DNA of 42,218 nucleotides from Candidatus Contendobacter odensis Run_B_J11 (GTDB lineage Bacteria; Pseudomonadota; Gammaproteobacteria; Competibacterales; Competibacteraceae): NCBI RefSeq assembly GCF_000531125.1, contig NZ_CBTK010000290.1:1-42218 (forward strand), in the 5' to 3' direction. Shown here piece after piece: positions 6,256 through 37,095 of this stretch. The notes beneath the pieces were generated by a model. The model saw only the letters and a program-made list of their open reading frames with translations. It did no database searches and was not told the origin of the DNA. Position numbers and translations under genes: made by a program. Position 1 is the stretch's first letter. The number at the start of each line of letters is the position of its first letter.

Positions 6256-6864
6256 GTGAACGCCGCTGCTCGTTTGACAACCCTGTTGGTTCCCACCGAG
6301 GTGAGGGGCTTGATCTTCGACTGCGACGGCACCTTGGCCGATACCTTGCCGCTGCATTATGCGGCGTGGGAGGAGACCTTTGCGACGCTGGGGCTGCATT
6401 GCCCGCTGGAATTTCTGCTTCGACACAACGGCAAGCCTACTGATCGGATTGTCACCCTGTACAACGCCGAATTTGATCAGCAGATCGATATTCATCAATT
6501 CACGGCGGATAAGGAACGCCGGACCTATGCCCGACTCGACCGGGCGCAGCCCTTGGAGCCGGTGGCGACGCTGGCGCGGCGCTATCACGGCCGCCTGCCG
6601 ATGGCCGTGGTTTCAGGCAGTAACCGCGCCAACGTGGAGCGGACGTTGAAGACCATCGGTCTGCGCGAGTTATTTCCGGTGGTGCTGACCGCCGACGATG
6701 GTTTGCCACCCAAACCGGCTCCGGATTTGTTTCTGGAAGCGGCTCGTCGGTTGGGAGTGGACCCACGGGATTGTCAGGTGTTCGAGGATGCCGACGCCGG
6801 TCTGGAAGCCGCTCGTTGCGCTGGAATGCTGGCCACCGATGTGCGTTCAGTGTTGGGACTGTGA
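6256..6864 (+). CDS. HAD-superfamily phosphatase, YqaB/beta-phosphoglucomutase-like
   Basis: 202 aa from GTG 6256, which has GGGAG about 5 nt upstream and begins just after the pilU stop; the open frame extends back into pilU but without homology. HAD motif I IFDCDGTLADT carries the nucleophile and acid/base aspartates. Motif II VVSGSNRAN, motif III Lys in KPAPDLFLEAARRLGV and motif IV VFEDADAGLEAA are intact. The sequence around the cap and motif II (YHGRLPMAV) closely follows E. coli YqaB, a fructose-1-phosphatase, so a small phosphorylated sugar is the likely substrate. The specificity call is inference. It probably shares a transcript with pilU. Confidence 0.85.
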   Translation: MNAAARLTTLLVPTEVRGLIFDCDGTLADTLPLHYAAWEETFATLGLHCPLEFLLRHNGKPTDRIVTLYNAEFDQQIDIHQFTADKERRTYARLDRAQPLEPVATLARRYHGRLPMAVVSGSNRANVERTLKTIGLRELFPVVLTADDGLPPKPAPDLFLEAARRLGVDPRDCQVFEDADAGLEAARCAGMLATDVRSVLGL

Positions 6865-6877
6865 TAGATCTCAAGCC

Positions 6878-8920
6878 ATGCTCGAACCTCTTCCGCCGCG
6901 CCCCCGCCTTTTCGGCCTCAAGCGCCAATTTTTGCTGCTACTGGCCGGGGTTTATGTGCTGACCGGCACGGTAGCGCTGGGGCTATTCGGCTGGGGCATC
7001 CACCGCGTGACCCGGCAATTGGGCGAGGAATTCGCTGCCCAATACGCGCTGCGACAGAAAGACCGCATTCTGGCGCCGATTCAACGCGAACTGGCCCTGG
7101 CCCGCACGCTGACCGATTCGCCGCTGCTCCAACGCTGGGTGCGCGACGAAAACAATCCTGATCTTAAGGCCGCTGCCTTGGCGGAGTTGGAAAGCTACCG
7201 CCGTCATTTTGCTGACCGCAGTTACTTTGTCGCTATTGATTCGTCCAAACACTTCTACTTCAACGACGCCGCCAACGCTTATCAAGGTCGGGAACTCGGT
7301 CATACCCTTGATCCTAATCTGCCCAGCGATTCCTGGTACTTTGCCACGCTGGCGCAGTCGGCAGATTTCGTGCTGAACATCAATTACGACGTGCCTCTCA
7401 ATATCAATAAGCTCTGGTTTAATGTCGTCATTCGGGATGGCGCTGAACAACTGGGGGTAGGCGGGACCGGGCTGGAGTTGGACCGCTTTATCAAGGCGGT
7501 ACTCAGCGAGGATCGCCAAGGAGTGCAAACCCTGTTACTGGATCGGGCGGGCGCGATTAAGGCACATCATCAGCGCGCCTACATTGATTTCAATACCGTA
7601 GCCAAGCCTGAAGCGGAACGCAGCACCCTGTATCGGTTGCTGACGACGCCACAAGAGCAAGATTTACTGCGCGCCCAACTGGAACGGCTTAGCACCGGTC
7701 AAATCGCGGTTGCGGTGCTGCCATTGACAGTCGAGGGAAAACCGCATCTGGTCGCTATTGCCTATCTTCAGGAAATTCAATGGTTCGCGGTGGCTCTGGT
7801 GGATATTGCCGATATTTACCGTTTTGGACGGTTTGCGCCATTTGCGGCGCTGTTGGCCTTGTCGCTGCTGGCGCTGGCGGGCGCAGTAACGGTGCTGCTT
7901 AACCGGCTGGTACTCAATCCGCTGGCCCAGTTGCATCATTCCACTCAAGCCATTGCCGCCGGTGATTACAGGCCATTGGCTGTGGTGGAGACCCATAATG
8001 AGATTGGGGAATTGACCAGCGCGTTTAACGACATGGCGCGAACGGTGCGGCAACACACTGATCATCTGGAGCAGCGAGTCGCAGAGCGCACCCGCGAACT
8101 CGATCAGGCCAACGGACAACTGGCGGAAGCGCACCGCCAGGTTCTCGACAGCATTCAATACGCCCAATTGCTCCAGCAGGCGATTCTGCCCCTGCCGGAA
8201 TTATTGGCGCGGGCGCTGGGCGAACATTTTGTCATCTGGCGACCCCGCAATCTGGTCGGCGGCGATTTCTACTATTGCCAAGCGGATGAGCGAGGCTGTC
8301 TGTTAGTGGTCGCGGACTGCACCGGTCATGGGGTGCCCGGCGCGTTTATGACCATGGCGGTTAATTCGGTGTTGAACCATATCACCGGCACTTGCGGGAT
8401 TGACGATCCAGCCCGTCTCTTGCAAGCGGTTAACCGGCTGTTGCGCGCCACCTTGCGGCAGGACGAGATGGGCGAGGGTTTCGAGAATGGTCTGGATGCC
8501 GGCGTGTGCTATTGGTCCTGGTCGGCGTCGAGCCTGATCTTCGCTGGGGCGCGGCTGGATTTGTACTATCGGGATGCCGACGGCGCCGTTGCAGTCCTTC
8601 GCGGTGACGGGTGTAGTGTGGGCTATCGGCGTTCCAACCCGGACTGGACCTTTGTGAGTCACGCCGTCGAAAGGGCGCCGGGTCGGGTTTTCTATCTGAT
8701 CACCGATGGCCTGCTGGATCAGTCCGGCGGGCCGAAGGGTTATGGTTTTGGACGCCAACGCTTTCTGGCGTTTTTGCAGCAACAGGGCCATCTGCCGCTG
8801 GCTGCGCAGCAGATAGCGCTGGAACAGACGCTAGCGAACTGGCAGGGCGAACAATCGCAGCGCGATGATATGACCGTAATCGGTTTTCGTCCCGTGCTGG
8901 AACCACCCCTCTCACCTTGA
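6878..8920 (+). CDS. siaA: SiaA-type membrane PP2C phosphatase with HAMP domain
   Basis: 680 aa from ATG 6878, 14 bases after the HAD stop, with no clear Shine-Dalgarno. TM helix at ~16-40, an extracytoplasmic sensor (Cache-like, ~45-310), TM at ~315-343, HAMP (~343-398), a coiled coil (VAERTRELDQANGQLAEAHRQ) and a C-terminal PP2C/SpoIIE domain from ~450. The phosphatase metal-binding blocks GGDFYY, VVADCTGHGVPGAFMT and the final QRDDMTVIGF are intact. In Pseudomonas aeruginosa SiaA dephosphorylates SiaC and is opposed by kinase SiaB, setting SiaD diguanylate cyclase activity and aggregation or biofilm formation. Gene order and domain structure here match that system. Confidence 0.9.
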   Translation: MLEPLPPRPRLFGLKRQFLLLLAGVYVLTGTVALGLFGWGIHRVTRQLGEEFAAQYALRQKDRILAPIQRELALARTLTDSPLLQRWVRDENNPDLKAAALAELESYRRHFADRSYFVAIDSSKHFYFNDAANAYQGRELGHTLDPNLPSDSWYFATLAQSADFVLNINYDVPLNINKLWFNVVIRDGAEQLGVGGTGLELDRFIKAVLSEDRQGVQTLLLDRAGAIKAHHQRAYIDFNTVAKPEAERSTLYRLLTTPQEQDLLRAQLERLSTGQIAVAVLPLTVEGKPHLVAIAYLQEIQWFAVALVDIADIYRFGRFAPFAALLALSLLALAGAVTVLLNRLVLNPLAQLHHSTQAIAAGDYRPLAVVETHNEIGELTSAFNDMARTVRQHTDHLEQRVAERTRELDQANGQLAEAHRQVLDSIQYAQLLQQAILPLPELLARALGEHFVIWRPRNLVGGDFYYCQADERGCLLVVADCTGHGVPGAFMTMAVNSVLNHITGTCGIDDPARLLQAVNRLLRATLRQDEMGEGFENGLDAGVCYWSWSASSLIFAGARLDLYYRDADGAVAVLRGDGCSVGYRRSNPDWTFVSHAVERAPGRVFYLITDGLLDQSGGPKGYGFGRQRFLAFLQQQGHLPLAAQQIALEQTLANWQGEQSQRDDMTVIGFRPVLEPPLSP

Positions 8921-26054: not shown

Positions 26055-26378
26055 CTAGCTCTCTGACGGTAGCGTGGGCTGGCTGCGACGGTGTCGGATG
26101 CGTTCAGTGGGCATCGCTAGTTCCGCTGGCGTGGTGGGGATCGGATGGTGGGAAACCACCGGCAGATGGATACCCGTCGTCGAACCGGTGCGCGCCCGGC
26201 GCAGCCAGCCCAGCACCCGGCGCTCCACCGCATCCTGATCAGAGGACGACATATCCCGGAAAATCAGCGTCCCAACGCTGATCAGCAGGGTTAATCCACC
26301 GAGAAAGGTCATCAGCGGCTGCATGAAAGCAATCGCCAGCAGCGCAAGTAGCCCAAACAGGATATGCCGGATTTTCAA
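26055..26378 (-). CDS. Small membrane protein of unknown function
   Basis: 107 aa from TTG 26378, which has GGAGG 7 nt upstream; no ATG start is available. Two adjacent hydrophobic helices (~5-20 and ~22-40: LFGLLALLAIAFMQPL, GGLTLLISVGTLIF) are followed by a short acidic/basic cytoplasmic-looking region (DMSSSDQDAVERRVLGWLRRAR) and a His/Pro/Ser-rich tail that looks disordered. I do not recognise the family. It is divergent from the pseudokinase gene and follows no gene closely; 153 bases separate its stop from the ElyC-like gene and hold nothing I can identify. Confidence 0.55.
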   Translation of the reverse strand: MKIRHILFGLLALLAIAFMQPLMTFLGGLTLLISVGTLIFRDMSSSDQDAVERRVLGWLRRARTGSTTGIHLPVVSHHPIPTTPAELAMPTERIRHRRSQPTLPSES

Positions 26379-26536: not shown

Positions 26537-29227
26537 ATGGACATCGAAACCCGTTCTAAAGAAGTGGCAGACACCTGCGTTGAAGGTCAACTGGACCAGG
26601 AAGCCTTGCTGGACAGCGCAGCGGACGCAAATCTCCAGTCAGCAGCAGACAACCTGACGCTCAGTATCGTGGAAGGCCCCGAGACTGAGATCCGGGCCGT
26701 GGGTGAGGGCATTGGACTGGAAACCCTGGAGTCCGGCAAGGTGATCGGTCCCGCTGATCGACGTGTCCGCCTCCTGCACGATCTCAGTGGCGAGAAACGA
26801 ATCTGGCTGGCACGCGCTGTCGCACCGACGCTCGGTCAAAATGATGGAGTGGCGGAAGAATTCCAGGCCGTCAAGATTTTTCTGCCCGTCGGTCATCCCG
26901 CGATTACCCGGGAATCCAAGCGCGAAGAGCGGGCACAACGGGCTGATCTCATCGGCTTGCGGGCGTACCTGGCTAGAGTCAGAGCGCGGGTCGAACTGGC
27001 TACAAAGCTGGATCACCTGAATATCGCTCACGTCCGGGGTTGGCGGTACGGTGCTGACGGCTGGCCGTTTGCGGAAATGGAATACATTAACCCCCGCAAT
27101 GGTTACACGCTTGCGCAACGGTTGCGTGAGCAGGGCCGGGACGGCTTTCCCTGGGACACCATCATCACTTGGCTGCTACCGGTTACCGACGCACTGGATT
27201 ATGCCCGCCGGGAGCATCGGATCGCTCATCAACACCTCGACACAGACACGGTTTTCGTCACCGATCAGGGCGAAATCAAGCTGCTGGGATTCAGTCTGGC
27301 CATCGAGTCGCGTGAACCACGCAGCGTGCTGTTTGCCGGCGGAGGGCCGACGGCTGGGGCGAATCCAGAAGGTTCAACCGATCCGGCTACCGCTGAAACG
27401 ACCTTTCGCCGCGATGTATTCGCATTGGCGTTGCTGGTTTACCAGCTATTGACGGGCAAGAGTGTTTACGAGGTACAGAGCCAGCAGCCGAACACGGTGC
27501 CGCGCCCGGACCGGTTGAATGATGATGCCTGGCGGGTGTTGCGCCGAGGTCTGGCCTATCCCAGCGAACTGTGTCCAACCGATGCCGGTCCATTTCTAGC
27601 GGCACTGGATGCAGCACAATGCCCTGGTACGACGGTCGCGCATCGCCGTAACCCGATCCTGAAACGGAAATGGAAATGGATGCCGGTGGCAGGCTTGGGT
27701 TTAGCAGCCATCCTGTCCATCTATTGGCTGACCACGCGGGTTAACAAGGCGCCTGAGCCAACACCGCCGGCGCGGATCGCCCAATCCGGCGAGACGGCGC
27801 CAGGATTGGATATAACGCCGCCCTCCACGGTGGGTGGTTCCGCACAAGCGCTGGAGCGTGAGGCCGACCTGCACGCATTTGAGGCAGCCCGGCGGGTGGA
27901 TACGCAAGTGGCTTACCGGCTCTACCTGCAGCGTTGCCCGCGCTGTGGTTACGAGCGGGAGGCACGGGCTGCCGTTCAGCGGCTGGAAACTGCGGATAAA
28001 ATCCGCGAGATCAAGGCAGCCTTTGAGACTGCGGTGCTTGCGCTGGAGCGTGAAAGCCGAGGTGACCGGGGTGATGTGGCGAGATCCCGCCTGGATGCGT
28101 TGGCGGCACTGGCGCCTGATGAACCACTGCTCACTACCGGGCGATTGCGGTTGGTACTCGGCTGGGCCGCACTGGCGCAGGCGAGTCTGGACAAGGCGGA
28201 TTTGGGCGAAGCCCGACGCTGGTTGAAAAAGGCCGAATCCCTTCAGGTAGAACACCCCGAATTGAAGGCATTGGCCCAACGCCTCGACCAGGTTGATGCA
28301 GAGGAACGGATCAAGCGTCTGGATGCCGATGCGTTCGCTGCAGTCCAGCGTGTCCACACTCGCAAAGCCTACTGGAGCTACCTCGAGCGCTGTGCGCCGA
28401 TGTGCAACCACCGTGCGGAAGCGGAGGCGGCGCTGGTCCGGTTGGCGCCTGCCAATCCGGTACTCCGGGATCGGCTGAGCGACGGCTCGCAAGGGCCTGA
28501 AATGGTGGTCATTCCGTCTGGCGGGTTTCTGATGGGATCGCCGCCTCAGGAAAAGGGTCGCTACAACGACGAAAAACTCCGTCCAACCTTGATTGAAACC
28601 TCGTTCGCTATCGGCAAGTACGAGGTGATGTTCCACGAGTACGACCGGTTCGCAACCGCGACTGGGCGCACCCTGCCCCTCGATCAAGGTTGGGGGCGTG
28701 GCCGCCGTCCGGTGATCAATGTGAGTTGGCAGGCTGCGGTGGACTATACTCAATGGTTGTCTCAGCAAACCGGCCACCGTTACCGGTTGCCAACGGAAGC
28801 AGAGTGGGAATACACGGCCCGCGCCGGGATCGCCGCCAGCCGCTACTGGGGTGACGATCCGGATCAGGGCTGTGCCTATGCGAACGCCGCCGATCTGGAT
28901 GGCAAGCAGATGTTCGTAGGCTGGACGGTGATGAAGTGCCACGATGGGCAGATTTATACCGCGCCGGCCGGTAGCTACCGTAGCAACGATTTCGGTTTGC
29001 ATGACATGCTCGGTAATGTCCTGGAGTGGACCTGCTCGTTGTACGACAAGGAGGCTCCAGCGCCAATCCAGAGTTGCCAACAACCGGCTGAGGATCGCCA
29101 GTTCGTAGTGCGCGGCGGTTCCTGGAACGATGAGCCGCGCAACGTCCGTTCGGCGGAACGGCACCGCAGCCGGGCCAACTATCAGGATTATTTCCTGGGG
29201 TTCCGCCTGGTGCGGGAATTACCGTAG
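26537..29227 (+). CDS. Pseudokinase - TM - FGE/sulfatase-modifying-factor fusion protein
   Basis: 896 aa from ATG 26537 (alternatives ATG 26489, GTG 26420). Residues ~80-360 are a protein-kinase fold: Lys in EFQAVKIF (K113) and the hinge FAEMEYINP survive, but the catalytic loop reads AHQHLDTDTVFV where HRDLKPxN is expected, and DFG is replaced by LGFS (~249-252); both catalytic aspartates are gone. TM helix ~378-399. The outer part has two copies of a ~42-residue repeat (442-483, 595-636; F-A--R--T--AY--YL-RC---C--R-EA-AA--RL) and a C-terminal FGE/SUMF1 domain (~654-896) with PTEAEWEYTARAG, DMLGNVLEWTCS and VVRGGSW. The Cys pair that catalyses formylglycine formation is absent, so binding or scaffolding is more likely than sulfatase activation. 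First gene of a seven-gene set. Confidence 0.85.
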   Translation: MDIETRSKEVADTCVEGQLDQEALLDSAADANLQSAADNLTLSIVEGPETEIRAVGEGIGLETLESGKVIGPADRRVRLLHDLSGEKRIWLARAVAPTLGQNDGVAEEFQAVKIFLPVGHPAITRESKREERAQRADLIGLRAYLARVRARVELATKLDHLNIAHVRGWRYGADGWPFAEMEYINPRNGYTLAQRLREQGRDGFPWDTIITWLLPVTDALDYARREHRIAHQHLDTDTVFVTDQGEIKLLGFSLAIESREPRSVLFAGGGPTAGANPEGSTDPATAETTFRRDVFALALLVYQLLTGKSVYEVQSQQPNTVPRPDRLNDDAWRVLRRGLAYPSELCPTDAGPFLAALDAAQCPGTTVAHRRNPILKRKWKWMPVAGLGLAAILSIYWLTTRVNKAPEPTPPARIAQSGETAPGLDITPPSTVGGSAQALEREADLHAFEAARRVDTQVAYRLYLQRCPRCGYEREARAAVQRLETADKIREIKAAFETAVLALERESRGDRGDVARSRLDALAALAPDEPLLTTGRLRLVLGWAALAQASLDKADLGEARRWLKKAESLQVEHPELKALAQRLDQVDAEERIKRLDADAFAAVQRVHTRKAYWSYLERCAPMCNHRAEAEAALVRLAPANPVLRDRLSDGSQGPEMVVIPSGGFLMGSPPQEKGRYNDEKLRPTLIETSFAIGKYEVMFHEYDRFATATGRTLPLDQGWGRGRRPVINVSWQAAVDYTQWLSQQTGHRYRLPTEAEWEYTARAGIAASRYWGDDPDQGCAYANAADLDGKQMFVGWTVMKCHDGQIYTAPAGSYRSNDFGLHDMLGNVLEWTCSLYDKEAPAPIQSCQQPAEDRQFVVRGGSWNDEPRNVRSAERHRSRANYQDYFLGFRLVRELP

Positions 29228-29243
29228 GCATGATTCATTCTCC

Positions 29244-29269
29244 CTGAACCCTCGATCTGAACCCTCGAT
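29244..29269 (+). repeat. 13-bp tandem duplication before the MlaE-type gene
   Basis: CTGAACCCTCGAT occurs twice in exact tandem (29244-29256, 29257-29269), filling most of the 43-base gap to the next start, where no Shine-Dalgarno is visible. Confidence 0.9.
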
Positions 29270-29270
29270 C

Positions 29271-30077
29271 ATGGCGGTGATCCAATGGGTGTCGCGGTTC
29301 TGGCGCGGGGTCGAGAGGCTTAGCCGGATGGTGATCGTACCCCTCGACCGTTTGCTGGAAGAACTGGGTTTCCTGTCCATCGTGTTGGTAAGCGTCGGAC
29401 TGGCGACACGAGGGGAATGGCCCTTTCTGGCTCGATACACCGGGCAACAGATTTACTTTACCGCCGTACAGCGCACCTACATTTTCACCGTCGTCGGCTT
29501 GATCATTGGTGCGCTGACCGCTTTTCCACTGATCGTACTCGGCATTCGCGATCCCCAGATATTGGGACGCATCATGCATCTCATGATTTATCACCAACTT
29601 GGTCCTATTCTGGCGGCGCTGTTCGTCGCGGGATTATCGGGCGCAGCCATCACCGCCGAGTTGGGCGAACTCCGAGCCAATCAGGCCCTTGACCATCTGA
29701 CAGCCATGGGTGTCAACCCTTACAGCTTTTTCGTATTTCCCCGTCTGATCGGTATGGCGTTGTCGTTGTTAATCCTGAACTGCTGGTTGAACGTCGGGGT
29801 AACCGTCGGCGCGGCGCTGATGCTGAATCTGTATCACAACATCCCGCCGACAGTGTTTCTCCGGGTCTGCGTGGCCGGGTTGACGCCGACGGCACTAACT
29901 CTGACCGGCGGGATGATCGTGATGCAGGCGACCCATATCGTGCTGGTTCAGACGCTGCGCGCCTTTCAGGTTCGGGCTTATGTGGACATTCCACGGGCGT
30001 TACCGAACGCTTTTACCCAATCCTTTATCGGCTGCCTGCTAATCAGCCTGCTGTTCTCGCTGGTGCGTTATGGCTGA
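29271..30077 (+). CDS. MlaE/YrbE-family ABC transporter permease
   Basis: 268 aa from ATG 29271; no clear ribosome-binding site, but the previous stop is only 43 bases away. An N-terminal amphipathic stretch is followed by five hydrophobic segments. The family landmark LGPILAALFVAGLSGAAITAELGELRANQALDHLTAMGVNPYSFFVFPR closely follows MlaE (the conserved GRxGaaiaAElGtM-qvdAL block, with Gly-Leu-Ser replacing Gly-Arg-Val/Ser at the start and Leu-Arg for the usual Met-Arg/Lys). MlaE dimers form the inner-membrane channel for phospholipid traffic. It overlaps the next gene by 8 bases. Confidence 0.9.
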   Translation: MAVIQWVSRFWRGVERLSRMVIVPLDRLLEELGFLSIVLVSVGLATRGEWPFLARYTGQQIYFTAVQRTYIFTVVGLIIGALTAFPLIVLGIRDPQILGRIMHLMIYHQLGPILAALFVAGLSGAAITAELGELRANQALDHLTAMGVNPYSFFVFPRLIGMALSLLILNCWLNVGVTVGAALMLNLYHNIPPTVFLRVCVAGLTPTALTLTGGMIVMQATHIVLVQTLRAFQVRAYVDIPRALPNAFTQSFIGCLLISLLFSLVRYG

Positions 30078-30807
30078 GGCGCGGCTGCGGGTGCGGGATT
30101 GGGTGCTGGATGCACAACCCATCCCGGAACCGTTTGATTTCCAGGCGCTACCCGGTGAGTTGTGGCTACTGGTGGGTCGGGTGGATTCGGGGAGGCGCGA
30201 GTTGATCAGGAGTATCGCCGGGCTGGATCGACCGCTGGCGGGTTACCTTGAACTGTTCGGTCAAGCAGTGGAACCCTTGCGGGCGCGGGCGCTGGGGCGA
30301 TTGCGCAGCCAGGTAGGTGTGGTGCTGGAACAGTCCGGTTTGGTTCCGGCCTGGAGCGTCTTCGAAAATCTGGCGCTGCTGCTCCACTATCATCGCCTGG
30401 CGCCCATCGGGGCGGTTGAGGATTACGTGGTGAATTTTGTCGAATCCTGTCGGGTGCCGCAGACCTTGTTGCCCCGGCGGGCCAGCGAGTTGTCACCACT
30501 GGAAAGCGCGTGGATCGCCTTGCTGCGGGCGCTGATTATCAAGCCAAGGTTACTGCTGGTCAGTGCGTACCTGCCACGGGAAACTCTGGCGGTGAATTAC
30601 AGCGTATGGGCGTTTTTTGAGGAGGTTATCCAGCCGATGAACATGACGATCCTGGTGGATGCCGGCCCTGGAGCGTTGCCGATTGGCTCGGAAACGCGGC
30701 TGCTGGTGATGGACCAAGGGACGCTGCGAGCAGCGGGCATGGCGCAGGATTTAAGCGATCATCCTGATGCCCTGGTCCGGCATTATGCAGGTTCCGAATA
30801 TGCTTGA
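30070..30807 (+). CDS. Degenerate ABC ATPase in the MlaF position
   Basis: 245 aa with ABC nucleotide-binding-domain length and layout, but the catalytic motifs are lost: Walker A reads GRVDSGRRE (36-44) with Arg-Arg for Lys-Ser/Thr, the signature is LSPLE (141-145) instead of LSGGQ, Walker B ends LLLVSA (S165-A166 for Asp-Glu), and the H-loop His is replaced in ILVDAGPG. The Q-loop (VVLEQSGLVPAWSVFENL, Q88) and the MlaF-like scaffold (SIAGLDRP..G.L.LFG) remain. The frame is intact over the full length and overlaps both neighbours by 8 bases, which argues for a maintained, non-hydrolysing subunit rather than a decaying gene. Confidence 0.82.
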   Translation: MAEARLRVRDWVLDAQPIPEPFDFQALPGELWLLVGRVDSGRRELIRSIAGLDRPLAGYLELFGQAVEPLRARALGRLRSQVGVVLEQSGLVPAWSVFENLALLLHYHRLAPIGAVEDYVVNFVESCRVPQTLLPRRASELSPLESAWIALLRALIIKPRLLLVSAYLPRETLAVNYSVWAFFEEVIQPMNMTILVDAGPGALPIGSETRLLVMDQGTLRAAGMAQDLSDHPDALVRHYAGSEYA

Positions 30808-31915
30808 GACGGTCATCGGCGCCCGTTACCGCTTTTACCAACGGTCGGTAGGCTTGCTGATCCTGGTGACACTCACCGTATTGTTTGTGATGCTATGGAT
30901 GGCGAATCGCCAGTTCGGCTTTTTCACTCAGACCTATCATTTGTACGGCTTCCTGGATAACGTCAAAAACATCCAGAAGACCACGCCGGTGACTCTGGCC
31001 GGGCTGAAAATCGGGGCAGTACGCGATTTGGCGATCACCGATTACAACCGGATTCGGGTCGCCTTGATTCTTGACCGGAGCTACCAGCCGCGCATTCGTG
31101 GCGGCTCGATGGCGTTGGTCAAGACTGATCTGCTGGGCAGCGCCCAGATCGAACTTAACATGGGCGCCCCCGATCAGCCGATGTTACAGGATGAGGCAGA
31201 GATTGCATTTGTGCGATCGGCCGATCTGGAGGTGTTGCTGCGGCAGGCGCAGGAACAATTAGCGCAGGTTTCCGCTGTGCTGACCAACGTCAAAATCCTC
31301 ACCGACGAACTGAAAAAACCTGAAGGGGCATTGTTAGGTACGCTGACGGCGTTTGCCCGGTTGGCCCAGGACTTCTCAACCAGGCTGTCGGGGTCCATGG
31401 AACGCATGGACGAGGTGCTGCGCAACGTCGCCGAACTCAGTGGGCAATGGACCCCGCTGCTGCGGAATATCGCGGTGGTGAGCGGAGAAATGAGCCGGGC
31501 GGCGACCGATCTGGCGGCGGTCAGTACCCGGATTCGCCAGGGTCAGGGGGTGTTGGGCGGGATGACGGATAGCGAAAGTCCACTGTCCCGCCATGTCGTG
31601 GCCAGCGCGCAAAAATTGCAGACCGTGTTGACCGGCCTGGAAAAACTGAGCGGGCAACTGCCTGGGTATGGCCGGCGGATTGAACAAATTTTGCGGCAAA
31701 CCGAAGTGTTGACCACTCGCTTGGCCGAGGCCAGTGGACGAGTGCCCGGCTTGCTCGACCGTAGCCACACCGTCGCAGAAGATGTAGACGAGGTGATCGG
31801 ATCGGTCAAGCAGAGTGCTTTGCTGCGGGTGCTGAACCCACCGCAACCGGGTCAGCCACCACTGGAAGCACCCCGGGACATGGGGTGGCCGATTCCCGCT
31901 GCGCCGCCGCACTGA
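30800..31915 (+). CDS. MlaD-family MCE-domain protein
   Basis: 371 aa from ATG 30800, with AGG 8 nt upstream and an 8-base overlap with the ATPase gene (ATG 30785 is an alternative). One N-terminal TM helix (~16-34), an MCE domain (~45-130; YGFLDNVKNIQKTTPVTLAG, LKIGAVRDLAI, ALVKTDLLGSAQIEL), then ~220 residues of predicted coiled coil and helical repeats and a Pro-rich tail. MCE proteins form hexameric rings or needles that carry lipids across the periplasm; the long helical C-terminus suggests a needle or tunnel. A 20-nt fragment of the intergenic repeat element is embedded in frame around residue 255. Confidence 0.88.
   Translation: MLETVIGARYRFYQRSVGLLILVTLTVLFVMLWMANRQFGFFTQTYHLYGFLDNVKNIQKTTPVTLAGLKIGAVRDLAITDYNRIRVALILDRSYQPRIRGGSMALVKTDLLGSAQIELNMGAPDQPMLQDEAEIAFVRSADLEVLLRQAQEQLAQVSAVLTNVKILTDELKKPEGALLGTLTAFARLAQDFSTRLSGSMERMDEVLRNVAELSGQWTPLLRNIAVVSGEMSRAATDLAAVSTRIRQGQGVLGGMTDSESPLSRHVVASAQKLQTVLTGLEKLSGQLPGYGRRIEQILRQTEVLTTRLAEASGRVPGLLDRSHTVAEDVDEVIGSVKQSALLRVLNPPQPGQPPLEAPRDMGWPIPAAPPH
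31562..31581 (+). repeat. Fragment of the intergenic repeat inside the MlaD-type gene
   Basis: ATGACGGATAGCGAAAGTCC matches the end of repeat copy 2 (25130-25149) with one mismatch over 20 nt, and translates to GMTDSESP like the usual repeat-derived GMTESES peptide. It keeps the reading frame. Confidence 0.6.
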
Positions 31916-31939
31916 TCCGGGCTGGAGGTTGCGGTTGCG

Positions 31940-32878
31940 ATGGATGTGAAGGTGAGCAGTCAGGCGAAACGGAACCGATGGTGGGTAATGCTGACCGGGC
32001 TGCTGCTGCTGCTACTGGCGGCCTGCGGCGGTCCAGCCTTAACACCGTTGCAGGCGCAGTATCAGCGCGAGCAGGAACGGGCATTGCGTTATCATGCCCG
32101 GGGTGAATTGCCACGCGCCTTGCAAGCCTATCAGGACAGTCTGCGCTGGGCGGAGATAGCCGATGACCGGGCGGCGATAGTGACCCAGGCGCTGAACCTG
32201 GGCACGGTTGCGTTGGCGCTGGGTGAATGGGCGCTGGCGGAATCGAGCTTTCAGCAAGCGCAACGAACGGCCGTTGAATTGCGGAATGTAGCGAGTGAAT
32301 GGCGGGCGCGGCTGGGGCTGGCCCAGGTCAGCTTGCGGCAAGGCCGATTTGAAGCAGCCCTGACCGCGTTTCAACATGCGCTGGCAGAGGTGCGTGAACG
32401 GGATACCGCTGCGGCGTTGGTGGCGCTCAATGGGCTGGGATTGGCACATCAGGGGCTGGAGCAATGGTCTGACGCCTACCGGGCCTTACGCGAAGCCGAA
32501 ATACTGGCGCGCGCCCATGGCAACGAGCGATTGCTGGCGGCAACCCTCGCCAATCAAGCCGCGCTGGCGCTGCGAACCGGCCAGTTCAGCCCAGCCGCAA
32601 CCAGGCTGGATGAAGCGATTGCCCTGGATCGCAACACAGAAAATCTGCCCGGTCTGGCGCAGGACCTGGCACTGCTGGCGCGGGTGCGTGAGCAGATGGG
32701 CGATGGGCCGGGCGCACTGGATTTGTACCGACAGGCCCGGATCATCGCCCGCCACACCGGTCAATTCCTGCCGGTTGAATCAGGCCACCGGGTAGATCGT
32801 GGTTCAGAGGGCGATTCCAGTGGGCGTTTACAACCGGGAGGGCTAAAATCAGCAGAGCAGAGCGGCCTGACTCCGTAA
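31940..32878 (+). CDS. TPR-containing lipoprotein
   Basis: 312 aa. TM-like signal LTGLLLLLLAAC with lipobox LAAC (Cys ~29) followed by Gly-Gly, so lipidation and outer-membrane sorting are likely. Residues ~35-280 contain about six helix-turn-helix TPR-type units (GELPRALQAYQDSLRWAE, GEWALAESSFQQAQRTA, GRFEAALTAFQHALAEV, EQWSDAYRALREAEILA, GQFSPAATRLDEAIAL, GDGPGALDLYRQARIIA). The last ~35 residues look disordered. It follows the MCE gene by 24 bases, where Mla or PqiABC systems have a soluble carrier or a lipoprotein, and could be the outer-membrane partner. Function unknown. Confidence 0.82.
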   Translation: MDVKVSSQAKRNRWWVMLTGLLLLLLAACGGPALTPLQAQYQREQERALRYHARGELPRALQAYQDSLRWAEIADDRAAIVTQALNLGTVALALGEWALAESSFQQAQRTAVELRNVASEWRARLGLAQVSLRQGRFEAALTAFQHALAEVRERDTAAALVALNGLGLAHQGLEQWSDAYRALREAEILARAHGNERLLAATLANQAALALRTGQFSPAATRLDEAIALDRNTENLPGLAQDLALLARVREQMGDGPGALDLYRQARIIARHTGQFLPVESGHRVDRGSEGDSSGRLQPGGLKSAEQSGLTP

Positions 32879-32961
32879 GGCCACCGGCTGATTTTCCGGG
32901 TTTTTCGGAACGATCGTGCGACCCCGCCAGAGGCGCTCACCGACACTACGACCAGGATGCC

Positions 32962-34911
32962 ATGATCAAGAAACCCAATAACACGCTGCCCGTCGGTTAT
33001 CGCTTGCATCAGTACCGTATTGAATCGGTGCTGGGCGCCGGTGGATTTGGAATCACCTACAAAGCCGTGCATGAGGCGTTGCAGACCAGGGCGGCTATCA
33101 AGGAATACTTTCCGGTCGAATGGTCCTATCGTGATCGCGACGAGGTCAATGTCCTAGCCAACACTCAGGGTGGTTTACCGACTTCAGAAGCGGGTGAGGA
33201 TGCCTGCTATAGCTGGGGCTTGGAGCGGTTCCTTAACGAAGCCCAAATTCTGGCGAAGGTGAATCACTCCGGCGTGGTGCGGGTACGGGATTTTTTCGAG
33301 GAGAACGGTACGGCCTATATCGTGATGGATTACGAGGATGGTGAACCGCTCAGCCAAACGCTCCAGCGGGAAAAAAACCTGATTGAAGACTCTATTCGCC
33401 GCCTGCTGGGCGATGTGTTGCCCGCCTTGGAGGCGGTGCATGCCTTGGGTTATCTGCATCGCGACATCAAGCCCGCCAATCTCTATCGCCGCGCCGACGG
33501 TCGAACCATCCTGATTGATTTCGGCGCGGCCCGCCAAGCACTGGGCCGGCGCAGCAAAAGTGTCACCAGTGTGTTTTCACCCGGTTACTCGCCGATTGAG
33601 CAGTATCTAACCGAGGGCAAGGGCTATGGACCTTGGACTGATATCTACGCCTTGGGCGCGGTTCTGTATCACTGTGTGGCCGGAGTAGCTCCTATCGAAG
33701 CACCGGGGCGAGTCCTCGACGATCCGCTGCGCCTGGCCGAGGAGTTGGCCTCCGGGCGCTACAGCCAGGGATTACTGCGGCTGATTGATCGGGCCATGGC
33801 GGTTCGCCCTGAGAAGCGGTTCCAGACGGTCGCGCAGATGCGGACTGCGCTGGAGGCGCGGATGGATGATGACGGTGAGCGCACCGTGAAGCTGGAATTA
33901 CCGCTGCGTTCGGATCTGCATCGCAGTGGCGAGAAGCCGCGCCTGGTCATCGTTGATCCCCCCAAGACACCCCTGAAATCCCGGCGCTTGGACTGGCGAT
34001 GGGGGGTTGGCATTCTGGCAGTGTTGGCGATAGCCGGAGGAGGTATTGCGATCTGGAAGGGGCAAGTTCCATCAACTCAGGTCGAGCAGCCATCTCATCC
34101 GCTCGCTTCGCTAAAACATTCTGGACCTCCCGCCAGCCCTCAACCCGGTCAGATCTACGCCGATCCGGGCACGGGTCTGGATTTTGTCTGGGTGCCACCG
34201 GGTTGTTTCATCATGGGCAGTCCAGACACCGAAAAAGATCGCAGCGCCAACGAGGTACCGCATCAGGTGTGTCTGAAGGGTTTCTGGATGGGTAAAACTG
34301 AGGTGACAAATGCCCAGTATCAGCAGTTCGACCCCGGCCATGACAGCGGTGCCTACGAATCCTACAGCCTGAACGCGCCCAATCAGCCGGTAGTTCGGGT
34401 CAGTTGGCAGGAGGCGGTCGCCTATGCCGACAAGCTGTCTGATAAATCCGGCCTGCGGTTTCGCTTGCCGACGGAGGCCGAGTGGGAATATGCGGCGCGC
34501 GCGGGTAACACCCATTCCCGCACTTGGGGCGATGATCCGAATCAAGCCTGCCGCTACGCCAACATCTACGACGAGACCGCACGTAAGACCAAGCCTTTCA
34601 ATTGGGCCAATTACCCCTGCGAGGACAAACAGGTCGTGGTTGCTCCGGTCGGCCAATATGAGGCGAACGCCTTTGGTCTCTACGACATGCTGGGTAATGT
34701 CGCAGAGTGGACTTGCTCCGAATACGACAACGCTTATACCGGCAGCGAAACCCGTTGTGCCGATCGTAAGGTCGCGGCGGGTGGGCAGCGGGTGTTGCGC
34801 GGCGGGTCATGGTCCGATTCTCCAAGACTGGTTCGCTTTGCCTATCGGTTTCCAGTCGCGCCGGAATTGCGCAAGTTTGACTTGGGATTCCGGCTGGTGC
34901 TGGAACCATGA
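32962..34911 (+). CDS. Membrane Ser/Thr protein kinase - FGE/sulfatase-modifying-factor fusion
   Basis: 649 aa. The kinase domain (~15-300) is intact: G-loop GAGGFGITY (25-33), Lys in AAIKEYF (K47), HRDIKPAN (166-173), DFG (186-188), activation segment SPGYSPIEQ (206-214). TM helix ~346-365. Extracytoplasmic FGE/SUMF1 domain ~398-649 with PTEAEWEYAARAG, YDMLGNVAEWTCS and VLRGGSW; the formylglycine-forming Cys pair is absent. Four cysteines (530, 553, 585, 599) align with those of the pseudokinase fusion and probably form disulfides in the periplasm; an extra pair is at 415 and 437. The protein is the second such fusion in the cluster and could sense an envelope signal and phosphorylate cytoplasmic targets. 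Confidence 0.93.
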   Translation: MIKKPNNTLPVGYRLHQYRIESVLGAGGFGITYKAVHEALQTRAAIKEYFPVEWSYRDRDEVNVLANTQGGLPTSEAGEDACYSWGLERFLNEAQILAKVNHSGVVRVRDFFEENGTAYIVMDYEDGEPLSQTLQREKNLIEDSIRRLLGDVLPALEAVHALGYLHRDIKPANLYRRADGRTILIDFGAARQALGRRSKSVTSVFSPGYSPIEQYLTEGKGYGPWTDIYALGAVLYHCVAGVAPIEAPGRVLDDPLRLAEELASGRYSQGLLRLIDRAMAVRPEKRFQTVAQMRTALEARMDDDGERTVKLELPLRSDLHRSGEKPRLVIVDPPKTPLKSRRLDWRWGVGILAVLAIAGGGIAIWKGQVPSTQVEQPSHPLASLKHSGPPASPQPGQIYADPGTGLDFVWVPPGCFIMGSPDTEKDRSANEVPHQVCLKGFWMGKTEVTNAQYQQFDPGHDSGAYESYSLNAPNQPVVRVSWQEAVAYADKLSDKSGLRFRLPTEAEWEYAARAGNTHSRTWGDDPNQACRYANIYDETARKTKPFNWANYPCEDKQVVVAPVGQYEANAFGLYDMLGNVAEWTCSEYDNAYTGSETRCADRKVAAGGQRVLRGGSWSDSPRLVRFAYRFPVAPELRKFDLGFRLVLEP

Positions 34912-34944
34912 GCCGGTTGGTGATCTGTAACCGAGGAGCTTGAT

Positions 34945-37095
34945 ATGGATAAAACCCTGCTGAAGGTATTTGGGTGGCTGCTGGCGTTGGTAGTCGAACT
35001 GCTGACGGTACCGGTTTGGGCTGCGGAGAACCCACCGCCAGCGCGGATGACGGCGACGGTGGTCGAATTCACGGTGCGCGGCGGCCTTGACGAGCAAGCC
35101 GGGGCGATTCTCGCCGACTTGATGATGTCAGCGATTGCGAATACCAGCCGCTTCACCCTGAAAGACCGGTTGCCATTGTCGGCAGCAGCCAAGATTGCCA
35201 AATCTCAGGAGCTGGGTTCGACCGGCCTGATCGATCCCAAAACTGCCGCCGAGCTGGGGCGCTTGTATGGGGTGGATGCAGTGGTGACCGGCGGAGTTAA
35301 TAAGCTGGGCGATCTGATTACCGTCACTGCGAGGCTGATTGATACCAAAACCGCTTCCCTGCTGCGCAGCGGCCAGATTCAAGGCAAAGACATTGACAGC
35401 ATCCAGATCAAGATCAATGAACTGGCGACCATGATCACCGCGCCGCCTGAACCGCCGAAGACCTATGCGCTGACGGTGGTGGCCCAACCGCCGGATGCCC
35501 AGATTCGGCTGCTTAACAACCCGGTCGCGTATCAGACCGGGGTCCGGCTATTGCCCGGCGATTATGAAGTCGAAATCACCCGCCCCGGCTATCTGGCGCA
35601 CAAGGCACCGGTGCGAATCGGAGATCGCGACGTGACGGTAACCGTGGCTCTGGATGCAGCCAAGTACGGCCTGACTGTCCGCCCGGAACCTGCGGATGCC
35701 CAAATCCGGTTGCTCGGCAGTTCCGTAGCCTATCAGGCGGGCGTCGCGCTGCCACCGGGTAGTTATGAGATCGAAGTGAGCCGGGACGGCTATGTGTCCC
35801 GCAAATTCCCGGTGCGGATTGTGGATAGCGAGGTCACGGTGCCCATCGTTCTGGACAAGACGACCCCGCCGCCGCTGGCGCCTTCTCAATACCGCTTGAC
35901 GGTGCAAACCGATCCACCACAAGCGGTGGTGCGTCTGGTCAACGTAAAGACGCCTTATCAACCCGGAGTACGGTTGCCACCAGGCGATTATCCACTGGAG
36001 ATTAGCCAATCGGGCTACGAACCGGTACGAATGACGGCGAAAATCGTGGACAGCGATGTGCTGGTGCCGGTGAAGCTGATTAAGCAAGCGGAACCGGAAC
36101 GGCCAAAATTGTACCGGCTGACCGTGCGCGTCGACCCGCCAAATGCCCGGGTTCGGCTGCGCGGCGTCAAGACCGCTTACAAACCCGGAATACCTTTGCC
36201 GCCGGGCAATTACACCGTTGAAGTTTCGCGAGCGGGTTATGAGACGAAGCAACTCCCGATAAGCATCGCTGATAGTGACTTGACCGTGCCGGTGGTCTTG
36301 GTCAAGCAGGCCGCACCCGAGCTGTACCAGTTGACGGTGCAGGTTGATCCGCCGGGTGCCCAAGTGCGGTTGCGTGGCACCGGAACGGTTTACCGGCCTG
36401 GGGTGCAGTTGCCGCCAGGCAACTACACGATAGAGGTCGCTAAATCGGGCTATGAAACCAAAAGTACGACGGTGCGGATTGCGAACAGCGATGTGAGCGT
36501 ACCGATAACGCTGCTCAAATCGCCCGAGATCGCGCAATACCGGTTGACGGTGCAGGCTACGCCGCCGAGCGCCCGGGTACGGCTGGTCAATTCCGCGTTC
36601 ACCTACCGTCCCGGGGTGCTATTACCCTCCGGTAACTACACCGTCGAAGTGACCGGGCGCGGCTATGAAACCAAGCGTCTGACCGTGCGGATCGCGGGTG
36701 ACGATGTAGCGCTGCCGGTCGAACTTGAAAAGACCGCAGCGGTGGCATCCTCCACCTCAACCGCCGCTCCTCCGTCCTTGCGCGCAGGTGAATGGCGGAT
36801 TAGCGCGGTGCAGGCCGACAGTGCGCTGGACAGTCAGGATCGCGCCGAGGTGCTGCGCATTTTTAACGGTTATGTCGGGCGAACCGTGACCCGCGACGCT
36901 TTACTGGATGGCGCGCTGCGGGTCTATCAGTCCACCGGGGTGACGCTCAGCTTTACCGTGCGCGAAAACGCGGCGGGCAGCGCCGAACTGTATGCGCGGG
37001 CTGCCCGGCGGGTGCGAAAAACCTATGAAAGCAGCATCCCGATCATGACCCGCAGCCAACTGGAAAATTCCGGTTTCGGGGTGTCGGTGCAGTGA
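34945..37095 (+). CDS. Secreted protein with FlgO/CsgG-like domain and six PEGA repeats
   Basis: 716 aa; GAGGAG precedes ATG 34945. Signal peptide 1-27 (VPVWA-A). Residues ~35-165 resemble FlgO/CsgG-type domains (ADLMMSAIANTSRFTLKDR, AAELGRLYGVDAVVTGGVNKLGDLI). Six PEGA repeats of ~70 residues follow (173-~598; nt 35461-36740), each with LTV...PP.A.VRL......Y.PGV.LPPG.Y..EV...GYE...; they are more alike in the later copies. The C-terminal ~105 residues (EVLRIFNGYVGRTVTRDALLDGA) have a POTRA-like look, not certain. PEGA proteins are often S-layer or envelope surface proteins tied to kinase-FGE systems. Last gene of the cluster. Confidence 0.88.
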   Translation: MDKTLLKVFGWLLALVVELLTVPVWAAENPPPARMTATVVEFTVRGGLDEQAGAILADLMMSAIANTSRFTLKDRLPLSAAAKIAKSQELGSTGLIDPKTAAELGRLYGVDAVVTGGVNKLGDLITVTARLIDTKTASLLRSGQIQGKDIDSIQIKINELATMITAPPEPPKTYALTVVAQPPDAQIRLLNNPVAYQTGVRLLPGDYEVEITRPGYLAHKAPVRIGDRDVTVTVALDAAKYGLTVRPEPADAQIRLLGSSVAYQAGVALPPGSYEIEVSRDGYVSRKFPVRIVDSEVTVPIVLDKTTPPPLAPSQYRLTVQTDPPQAVVRLVNVKTPYQPGVRLPPGDYPLEISQSGYEPVRMTAKIVDSDVLVPVKLIKQAEPERPKLYRLTVRVDPPNARVRLRGVKTAYKPGIPLPPGNYTVEVSRAGYETKQLPISIADSDLTVPVVLVKQAAPELYQLTVQVDPPGAQVRLRGTGTVYRPGVQLPPGNYTIEVAKSGYETKSTTVRIANSDVSVPITLLKSPEIAQYRLTVQATPPSARVRLVNSAFTYRPGVLLPSGNYTVEVTGRGYETKRLTVRIAGDDVALPVELEKTAAVASSTSTAAPPSLRAGEWRISAVQADSALDSQDRAEVLRIFNGYVGRTVTRDALLDGALRVYQSTGVTLSFTVRENAAGSAELYARAARRVRKTYESSIPIMTRSQLENSGFGVSVQ

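Follow-up and report, generated by a model that had tools for sequence, protein, structure and literature searches.

The described systems closest to the locus considered here, seven genes (A through G) at positions 26,537 to 37,095 of a contig of Candidatus Contendobacter odensis Run_B_J11 (NZ_CBTK010000290.1; contig C290 of our genome G000; its full 42,218 nucleotides are the window), are the TagQRST-PpkA-PppA set of type VI secretion (T6SS) and the Mpc lipid bridge. TagQRST-PpkA of Pseudomonas aeruginosa is described as reporting outer-membrane damage (PMC11881912), and TssK assembly is described as needing TagQ and TagR, with TagS and TagT dispensable and TagT required for retaliation upon attack (PMC6657622). 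With that set the locus shares a PpkA-type kinase, an FGE-fold part, a PP2C phosphatase (in most relatives), an ABC-type permease pair and a lipoprotein. It departs from it in that the FGE domain is fused to the kinase, a pseudokinase is added, the permease is of the MlaE/MCE rather than the FtsX type, the lipoprotein carries TPRs rather than a glycine zipper, the ATPase is degenerate, and the locus lies outside any T6SS cluster. It may work like TagQRST-PpkA, by analogy, without being a member, as judged by permease, lipoprotein, ATPase and location.

The second comparison is with Mpc (MpcE-F-D-A) of Brucella, which is described as having a permease, an ATPase, a long-tailed MCE protein and, last in the operon, an outer-membrane lipoprotein, with no MlaC (PMC12436622). 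Genes B-C-D-E offer the same components, likewise with a terminal lipoprotein gene and no MlaC; they differ in having no detected STAS domain on the permease, a TPR rather than a PqiC-like lipoprotein, a degenerate ATPase, and a position nested in a kinase locus. The resemblance to Mla (MlaFEDCB) is confined to the MlaE permease and the MlaD-type MCE domain: there is no MlaA, MlaB or MlaC among the seven genes, the ATPase is degenerate, and D has a long helical tail. GldK/PorK, PvdO and SUMF1 share the FGE fold of A and F, which here is fused to kinase domains and lacks the catalytic cysteine motif of FGE, and CsgG, PelC, LpoB and FlgT share the fold of the N-terminal domain of G, which here is followed by some six PEGA repeats and an alpha/beta domain at the C-terminus, with no sign of a pore. 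The original prediction, made from the DNA alone, knew of no described system with this composition, and none was found in the literature searched, nor was any MCE system with a degenerate ATPase; few subscription journals were covered.

The genome (4.6 Mb in 319 contigs, 99.5% complete) was compared with 38 others of its family, a set of 39 genomes from 13 genera. The original prediction had described seven collinear genes with overlaps or short gaps, and the open reading frame (ORF) listing bears this out, with all seven on the plus strand in the order described and, for the starts chosen, intergenic spacings of 43 (A-B), -8 (B-C), -8 (C-D), 24 (D-E), 83 (E-F) and 33 (F-G) nucleotides. For A, the start at 26537 given in the original prediction fits better than 26489, since the alignment with most relatives begins only at residue 16 or 17 of the protein read from 26489. 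Pfam agrees with the domain assignments first proposed, including the lack of an MlaB- or MlaC-like gene, neither family being matched among the seven proteins. The features are as follows.

26537 to 29227, plus strand: gene A, pseudokinase, transmembrane segment, predicted periplasmic region and FGE-fold domain (Pfam; motifs; transmembrane segment and topology read from sequence)
29271 to 30077, plus strand: gene B, MlaE-type permease (PF02405, 107 bits; PDB matches to MlaE)
30070 to 30807, plus strand: gene C, degenerate ABC ATPase (Pfam ABC_tran, 38 bits; motif alignment; dN/dS, the ratio of nonsynonymous to synonymous substitution rates)
30800 to 31915, plus strand: gene D, transmembrane helix, one MCE domain and a long helical tail (PF02470, MlaD, 43 bits)
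31940 to 32878, plus strand: gene E, TPR lipoprotein with lipobox LAACG (Pfam TPR)
32813 to 32851, plus strand: conserved promoter-like element in the 3' end of E, TAAAAT at 32844-32849, about 110 nucleotides before F (alignment)
32962 to 34911, plus strand: gene F, PpkA-type Ser/Thr kinase, transmembrane segment and FGE-fold domain (Pfam; PDB match; motifs)
34945 to 37095, plus strand: gene G, secreted CsgG/PelC/LpoB-like domain, about six PEGA repeats and a C-terminal alpha/beta domain (Pfam; model)
26055 to 26378, minus strand: gene for a small membrane protein of 107 amino acids, divergent from A (region matched in 16 of the 17 relatives tried)

The locus is composite, not a single machine. 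In the reading we prefer, to which we give a probability of roughly 0.4, it is an envelope-state Ser/Thr signalling module that holds a dispensable, nested lipid-bridge cassette, B-C-D-E. What supports this reading is the conserved gene order, the occurrence of A-F-G without the cassette, the malic-enzyme gene that follows G in 7 of 13 cassette-plus and 9 of 13 cassette-minus loci (in L101 after 2.8 kb), the adjacency of a PP2C gene to A, the PpkA type of F, an FGE-fold protein in the canonical PpkA-TagTSRQ set of a family member, an ATPase that is degenerate yet under selection, and the parallel with TagQRST-PpkA.

Orthologues of B, at 67-76% identity, occur in 13 of the 38 other family genomes and are separated by a sharp gap from other MlaE proteins, the next relative of B being found in another family (G053, 38% identity). 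C orthologues are present in the same 13 genomes and our own, which makes 14 of 39 genomes and 4 of 13 genera. The gene-neighbourhood comparison proposed with the original prediction gave the same A-to-G order in all 13 family loci fetched around B orthologues, as far as the contigs reach (L041 stops in E and L046 in F). The core A-F-G, whole or partial, is found in 31 of the 39 genomes, a count that includes genes on separate contigs (G005, G035, G037), one genome with A and part of F up to the contig end (G002) and one with G only (G038); the N-terminal part of G has matches of at least 58% identity in 30 of the 39 genomes. In 13 genomes with the A-F junction on one contig, A, F and G stand in the same order without B-C-D-E. 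Two more (G035, G037) are judged cassette-minus, the spacing between F and the PP2C gene having room for A only, and one (G030) is cassette-plus, since a contig end there carries E together with some of D. Among the 31 core genomes, then, 15 have the cassette, 15 do not, and 1 (G038) is undecided. The 15 genomes with A-F-G alone, together with B-C-D-E operons standing alone in other families and classes, speak against the single seven-gene machine that had been proposed; the part of that proposal that stands is a conserved envelope kinase/FGE/MCE locus.

Ancestors of several genera had the cassette, which has since been lost at least twice and probably four or more times. Repeated loss follows from remnants in the cassette-minus gaps and from the interleaving of cassette-plus and cassette-minus genomes on the tree of A and F. 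In G017 (L105) the gap contains parts of B (E 4e-8, with a second piece matching at 18 of 20 residues), in G021 (L104) 50 residues of E, 82% identical to its congener, in G006 (L099) a DNA stretch from the junction of B and C (75% over 84 bases, E 5e-9) and in G019 (L101) a stretch of the start of E (23/23 bases, E 2.5e-6), the last two being DNA matches without a shuffle control. The control that was made, in which each of 12 gaps was shuffled 50 times, gave 11 matches in 600 at E 0.01 or below, the best at 5e-4; it used a set database size, with rows L047 and L103 excluded from the queries, and its E-values are only roughly comparable. In L099 and L101, remnants resting on nothing but the final 15-19 residues of E coincide in part with the promoter-like element and were not counted as proof, and in G006 a two-base run of N close to the end of A makes that end uncertain. 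On the A and F tree (28 rows) the pairs G000 (plus) with G006 (minus) and G011 (plus) with G021 (minus) have support of 100, on a backbone that is weak, with support down to 12; for a tree of B, C and D the outgroup branch was too long for rooting. A mobile cassette newly inserted between A and F was considered and is ruled out by the B, C and E remnants in several of the minus gaps and by the interleaving on the tree. Loss of the cassette with A-F-G kept resembles the dispensability of TagS and TagT described for TssK assembly (PMC6657622).

For the kinase pair, F scores 121 bits for the kinase and 183 bits for the FGE family in Pfam, and its catalytic HRD and DFG motifs are intact in 28 of 28 aligned sequences, as the original assignment of an active kinase had it. 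The best PDB match of its kinase domain is PpkA (5hnv) at 208 bits, the next kinase scoring 80.5. A reaches 165 bits for FGE and 27 for the kinase family, under the cut-off of 31.7; both the HRD and the DFG aspartates are missing in 27 of 27 aligned sequences, and the VAIK lysine is kept. The FGE active site is a cysteine pair after a GGS motif. None of these cysteines is found in RGGSW...GFR in any row of A or F that is in frame there (uncovered or out of frame are A of L036 and L099 and F of L046 and L100), and the FGE-fold domains of both proteins are apparently non-catalytic. The dN/dS of F is 0.06-0.14 in five pairs, that of malic enzyme 0.02-0.09. At one locus (L036, G031:C64) A is split over two ORFs and there are ambiguous residues in the A and F frames, and this locus may be damaged or misassembled. 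Elsewhere (L144 5713-8379, G000:C112) our genome encodes another PpkA-like kinase that bears an FGE domain and whose kinase domain is 66% identical to that of F; kinases akin to it (64-73%) occur in many family genomes and in two of them (G004, G007) lie about 32 kb from VipB.

The third enzyme of the putative module is found in relatives. A PP2C-type gene stands divergent from A, between A and the small membrane-protein gene, in 25 of the 26 relative loci with A that were fetched (25 of 27 counting the window). Its motifs are well kept (DGMGG and VGDSR in 25/25, ENQDN in 22/25), and the protein of L034 scores above the cut-off for SpoIIE (39.7 bits), PP2C_2 (25.2) and PP2C (23.2). Relatives of this phosphatase are also present in three genomes without A-F-G (G016, G023, G027).

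The protein encoded by G was first named FlgO/PEGA. PEGA is matched at 86 bits and FlgO only under its cut-off, and CsgG is matched at 27.8 bits for G and 33 bits for its N-terminal 172 amino acids alone (cut-off 20.8). The model (pLDDT 80) has a CsgG/PelC/LpoB-type N-terminal domain, PEGA repeats and a C-terminal domain of strand-helix-helix-strand-strand order; its pTM is 0.30, hence the packing of the domains is undefined. In Foldseek the N-terminal domain matches PelC with TMt of about 0.6, and only this match was used, since the top eight for the whole model are chains of the beta-repeat and TolB types, none with a TMq above 0.14. To call the C-terminal domain POTRA-like would be to infer from the model. 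Outside the family, G-like N-terminal domains are weakly matched (40% identity or less), and the loci inspected around the G-like genes of G155, G093 and G396 show no A-F-G arrangement.

Within the cassette, C is the most telling component. In all 14 family members the Walker A lysine (arginine in the C of the window), the Walker B aspartate and glutamate and the H-loop histidine are lost, in line with the dead ATPase first proposed; two other ATPases of our genome, belonging to MlaE-type systems, have intact motifs and serve as a control. C is nevertheless under purifying selection, its dN/dS in five pairs (0.13-0.21) lying near those of B (0.11-0.27) and D (0.12-0.17), with E at 0.15-0.35. 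We infer that C does not hydrolyse ATP, and in the family loci it probably no longer binds it. A degenerate ATPase argues against C as the power source of transport, and the gating of lipid transport by phosphorylation that the original prediction envisaged finds no direct support. As for the other components, the MlaE family is the only one in Pfam that B matches, with no STAS domain detected; the model of D (AlphaFold) is poor, with pLDDT 56, its MCE part matching MlaD and Mce1 chains with helical tails ranking first; and the lipobox cysteine of E is invariant in 14 of 14 aligned sequences.

It has to be asked whether the cassette could still be driven by ATP, with an MlaF or Mpc-type ATPase supplied from elsewhere and C kept as a structural partner. 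Our genome does contain two more MlaE-type systems with intact ATPase motifs. B is strongly unlike the permeases of both (25% identity to one and a 63-residue match to the other), C is conserved in the place of an ATPase rather than lost, and members of the subfamily in other classes are without hydrolysis residues too; we regard this explanation as very improbable. One of the operons of our genome (L146 5572-9119, G000:C59) is Mpc-like, with a long MlaE-type permease, an intact ATPase, an MCE protein and a 237-amino-acid ORF that may be a lipoprotein, and a separate Mla-type operon seems present as well, as read from ORFs.

In the mechanism we favor for the signalling module with its nested cassette, F would be an active membrane kinase and A its pseudokinase partner, the periplasmic FGE-fold domains of both would sense or bind envelope components, and the PP2C phosphatase of most relatives, missing here, would reset the output. 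G would be a PEGA protein, periplasmic or outer-membrane-associated. B-C-D-E would form an Mpc-like bridge of inner-membrane permease, MCE tube with long helices, and outer-membrane TPR lipoprotein, and because C seems no longer to hydrolyse, and here probably no longer to bind, ATP, this bridge would either conduct lipids passively or report the state of the envelope and thereby modulate the kinase pair. A stronger version would have the pseudo-ATPase C couple a lipid-filled MCE tube to A and F, with the lipid state of the outer membrane read out as protein phosphorylation; we hold it to be unlikely. Under such coupling, the stand-alone operons of other classes would represent a precursor state that binds ATP and does not hydrolyse it.

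Several observations weigh against a signalling module to which the cassette belongs. In the window and in G006 the small gene is all that stands on the divergent side of A, and neither genome has a PP2C match at E 1e-10, so that the phosphatase was out of sight for the original prediction; a deletion scar in the window was looked for and is ruled out, there being no convincing remnant. The genomic location of the locus is not identical everywhere: in L045, L100 and L109 no malic-enzyme gene was found in the 2-4 kb past G, the remaining contigs without it ending earlier. The parallel with TagQRST is loose, since TagT is needed for retaliation. A shows no sign, by dN/dS, of dependence on B-C-D-E, with values of 0.148 and 0.176 in two cassette plus/minus pairs and 0.172-0.247 in five plus/plus pairs. 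In addition, F-G may be transcribed apart from A-E, as suggested by the promoter-like element that precedes F. All 11 loci aligned, a set picked after the gaps had been inspected, share a block that closes with TAAAAT or with a form of it changed at one base. By eye, 9 of the 13 cassette-minus gaps show the element, the exceptions being L102, L106, L111 and L112, all outside the aligned set, and a consensus promoter scan does not call it.

A further point comes from beyond the family. In the 369 genomes of the class, the B subfamily is confined to genomes of our family and G053 (E below 1e-47, the next match being 7e-26), and among 398 genomes of the phylum it is found at E 1e-27 in nine more, from two families that lie outside the class. 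Eight of these nine loci were fetched, and all eight have B-C-D-E in order and no match to A, F, G or PP2C in the 10-20 kb of each; G053 likewise has B-C-D-E with no A, F or G beside it, these being the three genes checked. In all nine loci that were read from other families, B-C-D-E thus has none of A, F and G beside it. In one of them (L184 4585-8819, G533:C77) two large same-strand ORFs lie upstream of B-C-D-E, one starting like an FHA-domain protein.

Hence the two units might be mere neighbors, an A-F-G(-PP2C) signalling module beside an independent, passive B-C-D-E bridge with no function in common. The stand-alone operons, the loss of the cassette without detectable effect on A, and the promoter-like element ahead of F all speak for this, and we consider it possible, if somewhat doubtful. 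It has to be set against the nested position with tight spacing, kept in 14 genomes of four genera and seen in part in G030, and against the pattern of motif loss. All nine C proteins outside the family retain the Walker A lysine and the Walker B aspartate, and all have lost the H-loop histidine and the Q-loop glutamine and have an altered LSGGQ; their Walker B glutamate is asparagine in eight and glutamate in one (G053). The ATP-binding residues of C are therefore lost only within the kinase locus, in 14 of 14 inside and 0 of 9 outside. It should be added that the two observations that the original prediction had said would speak against it are in part what we see, with the modules found in separate contexts and a promoter-like element lying between most of E and F.

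Another view is suggested by the PpkA type of F, namely that the family's T6SS has its missing PpkA in F, which, together with A, G and PP2C, would act in trans, and that B-C-D-E replaces TagQST. VipB, the T6SS sheath protein, is present in 37 of the 39 family genomes, and its presence is therefore uninformative; both VipB matches of our genome are on other contigs, and the locus is not in a T6SS cluster. The T6SS clusters of our genome and of six of six A-F-G-positive genomes fetched have matches to PppA, TagF and Fha and, in about 34 kb, none to the F kinase domain, a PppA-like gene lying in that of our own genome. Conversely, G013, which is without A-F-G, has PpkA-TagT-TagS-TagR-TagQ in its T6SS cluster (L148 4919-12376, G013:C158), the Tag names being a reading from domains and order, with TagS an FtsX protein and an FGE-fold protein also part of the set. 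TagS is found in 4 of the 8 genomes without A-F-G and in 3 of the 31 that have it (Fisher p 0.02), or 4 of 5 and 3 of 20 among genomes at least 90% complete (p 0.01), with no match in our own genome at E 1e-8. This association is confounded by kinship, the four negatives coming from three genera, and G006, G007 and G028 have TagS together with A-F-G. Moreover, the A-F-G-negative G020 and G014 have PppA, TagF and Fha and no kinase match in the cluster, with TagS elsewhere (the cluster of G010 is cut), and at least three matches to the F kinase domain, F itself and fragments counted, occur in 26 of the 31 A-F-G genomes. We think a T6SS role in trans improbable.

What the locus defines is, first, an MlaE/MCE subfamily in which the hydrolysis motifs of the ATPase are lost in every member read while purifying selection is kept, as seen in the family loci, and, second, an envelope module of pseudokinase, kinase and phosphatase in a family that is probably that of Competibacter, a wastewater-plant organism that accumulates glycogen. 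Should the bridge feed the kinases, this would be an example of lipid-transport machinery turned sensor, and the same question could be put for TagS and TagT in T6SS control.

As to the surroundings, no Pfam family is matched by the small membrane protein, and an Rfam scan gave no match. A defense system is ruled out, PADLOC giving just generic kinase, TPR and weak coiled-coil matches, as is a plasmid origin, B having no plasmid match at E 1e-20. A gene for a HAMP and SpoIIE-type phosphatase lies at 6698-8920 of the window, with no link to the cluster seen. Its neighbors are DUF218 and sugar-nucleotide genes upstream of the locus and, downstream on the opposite strand, the malic-enzyme gene.

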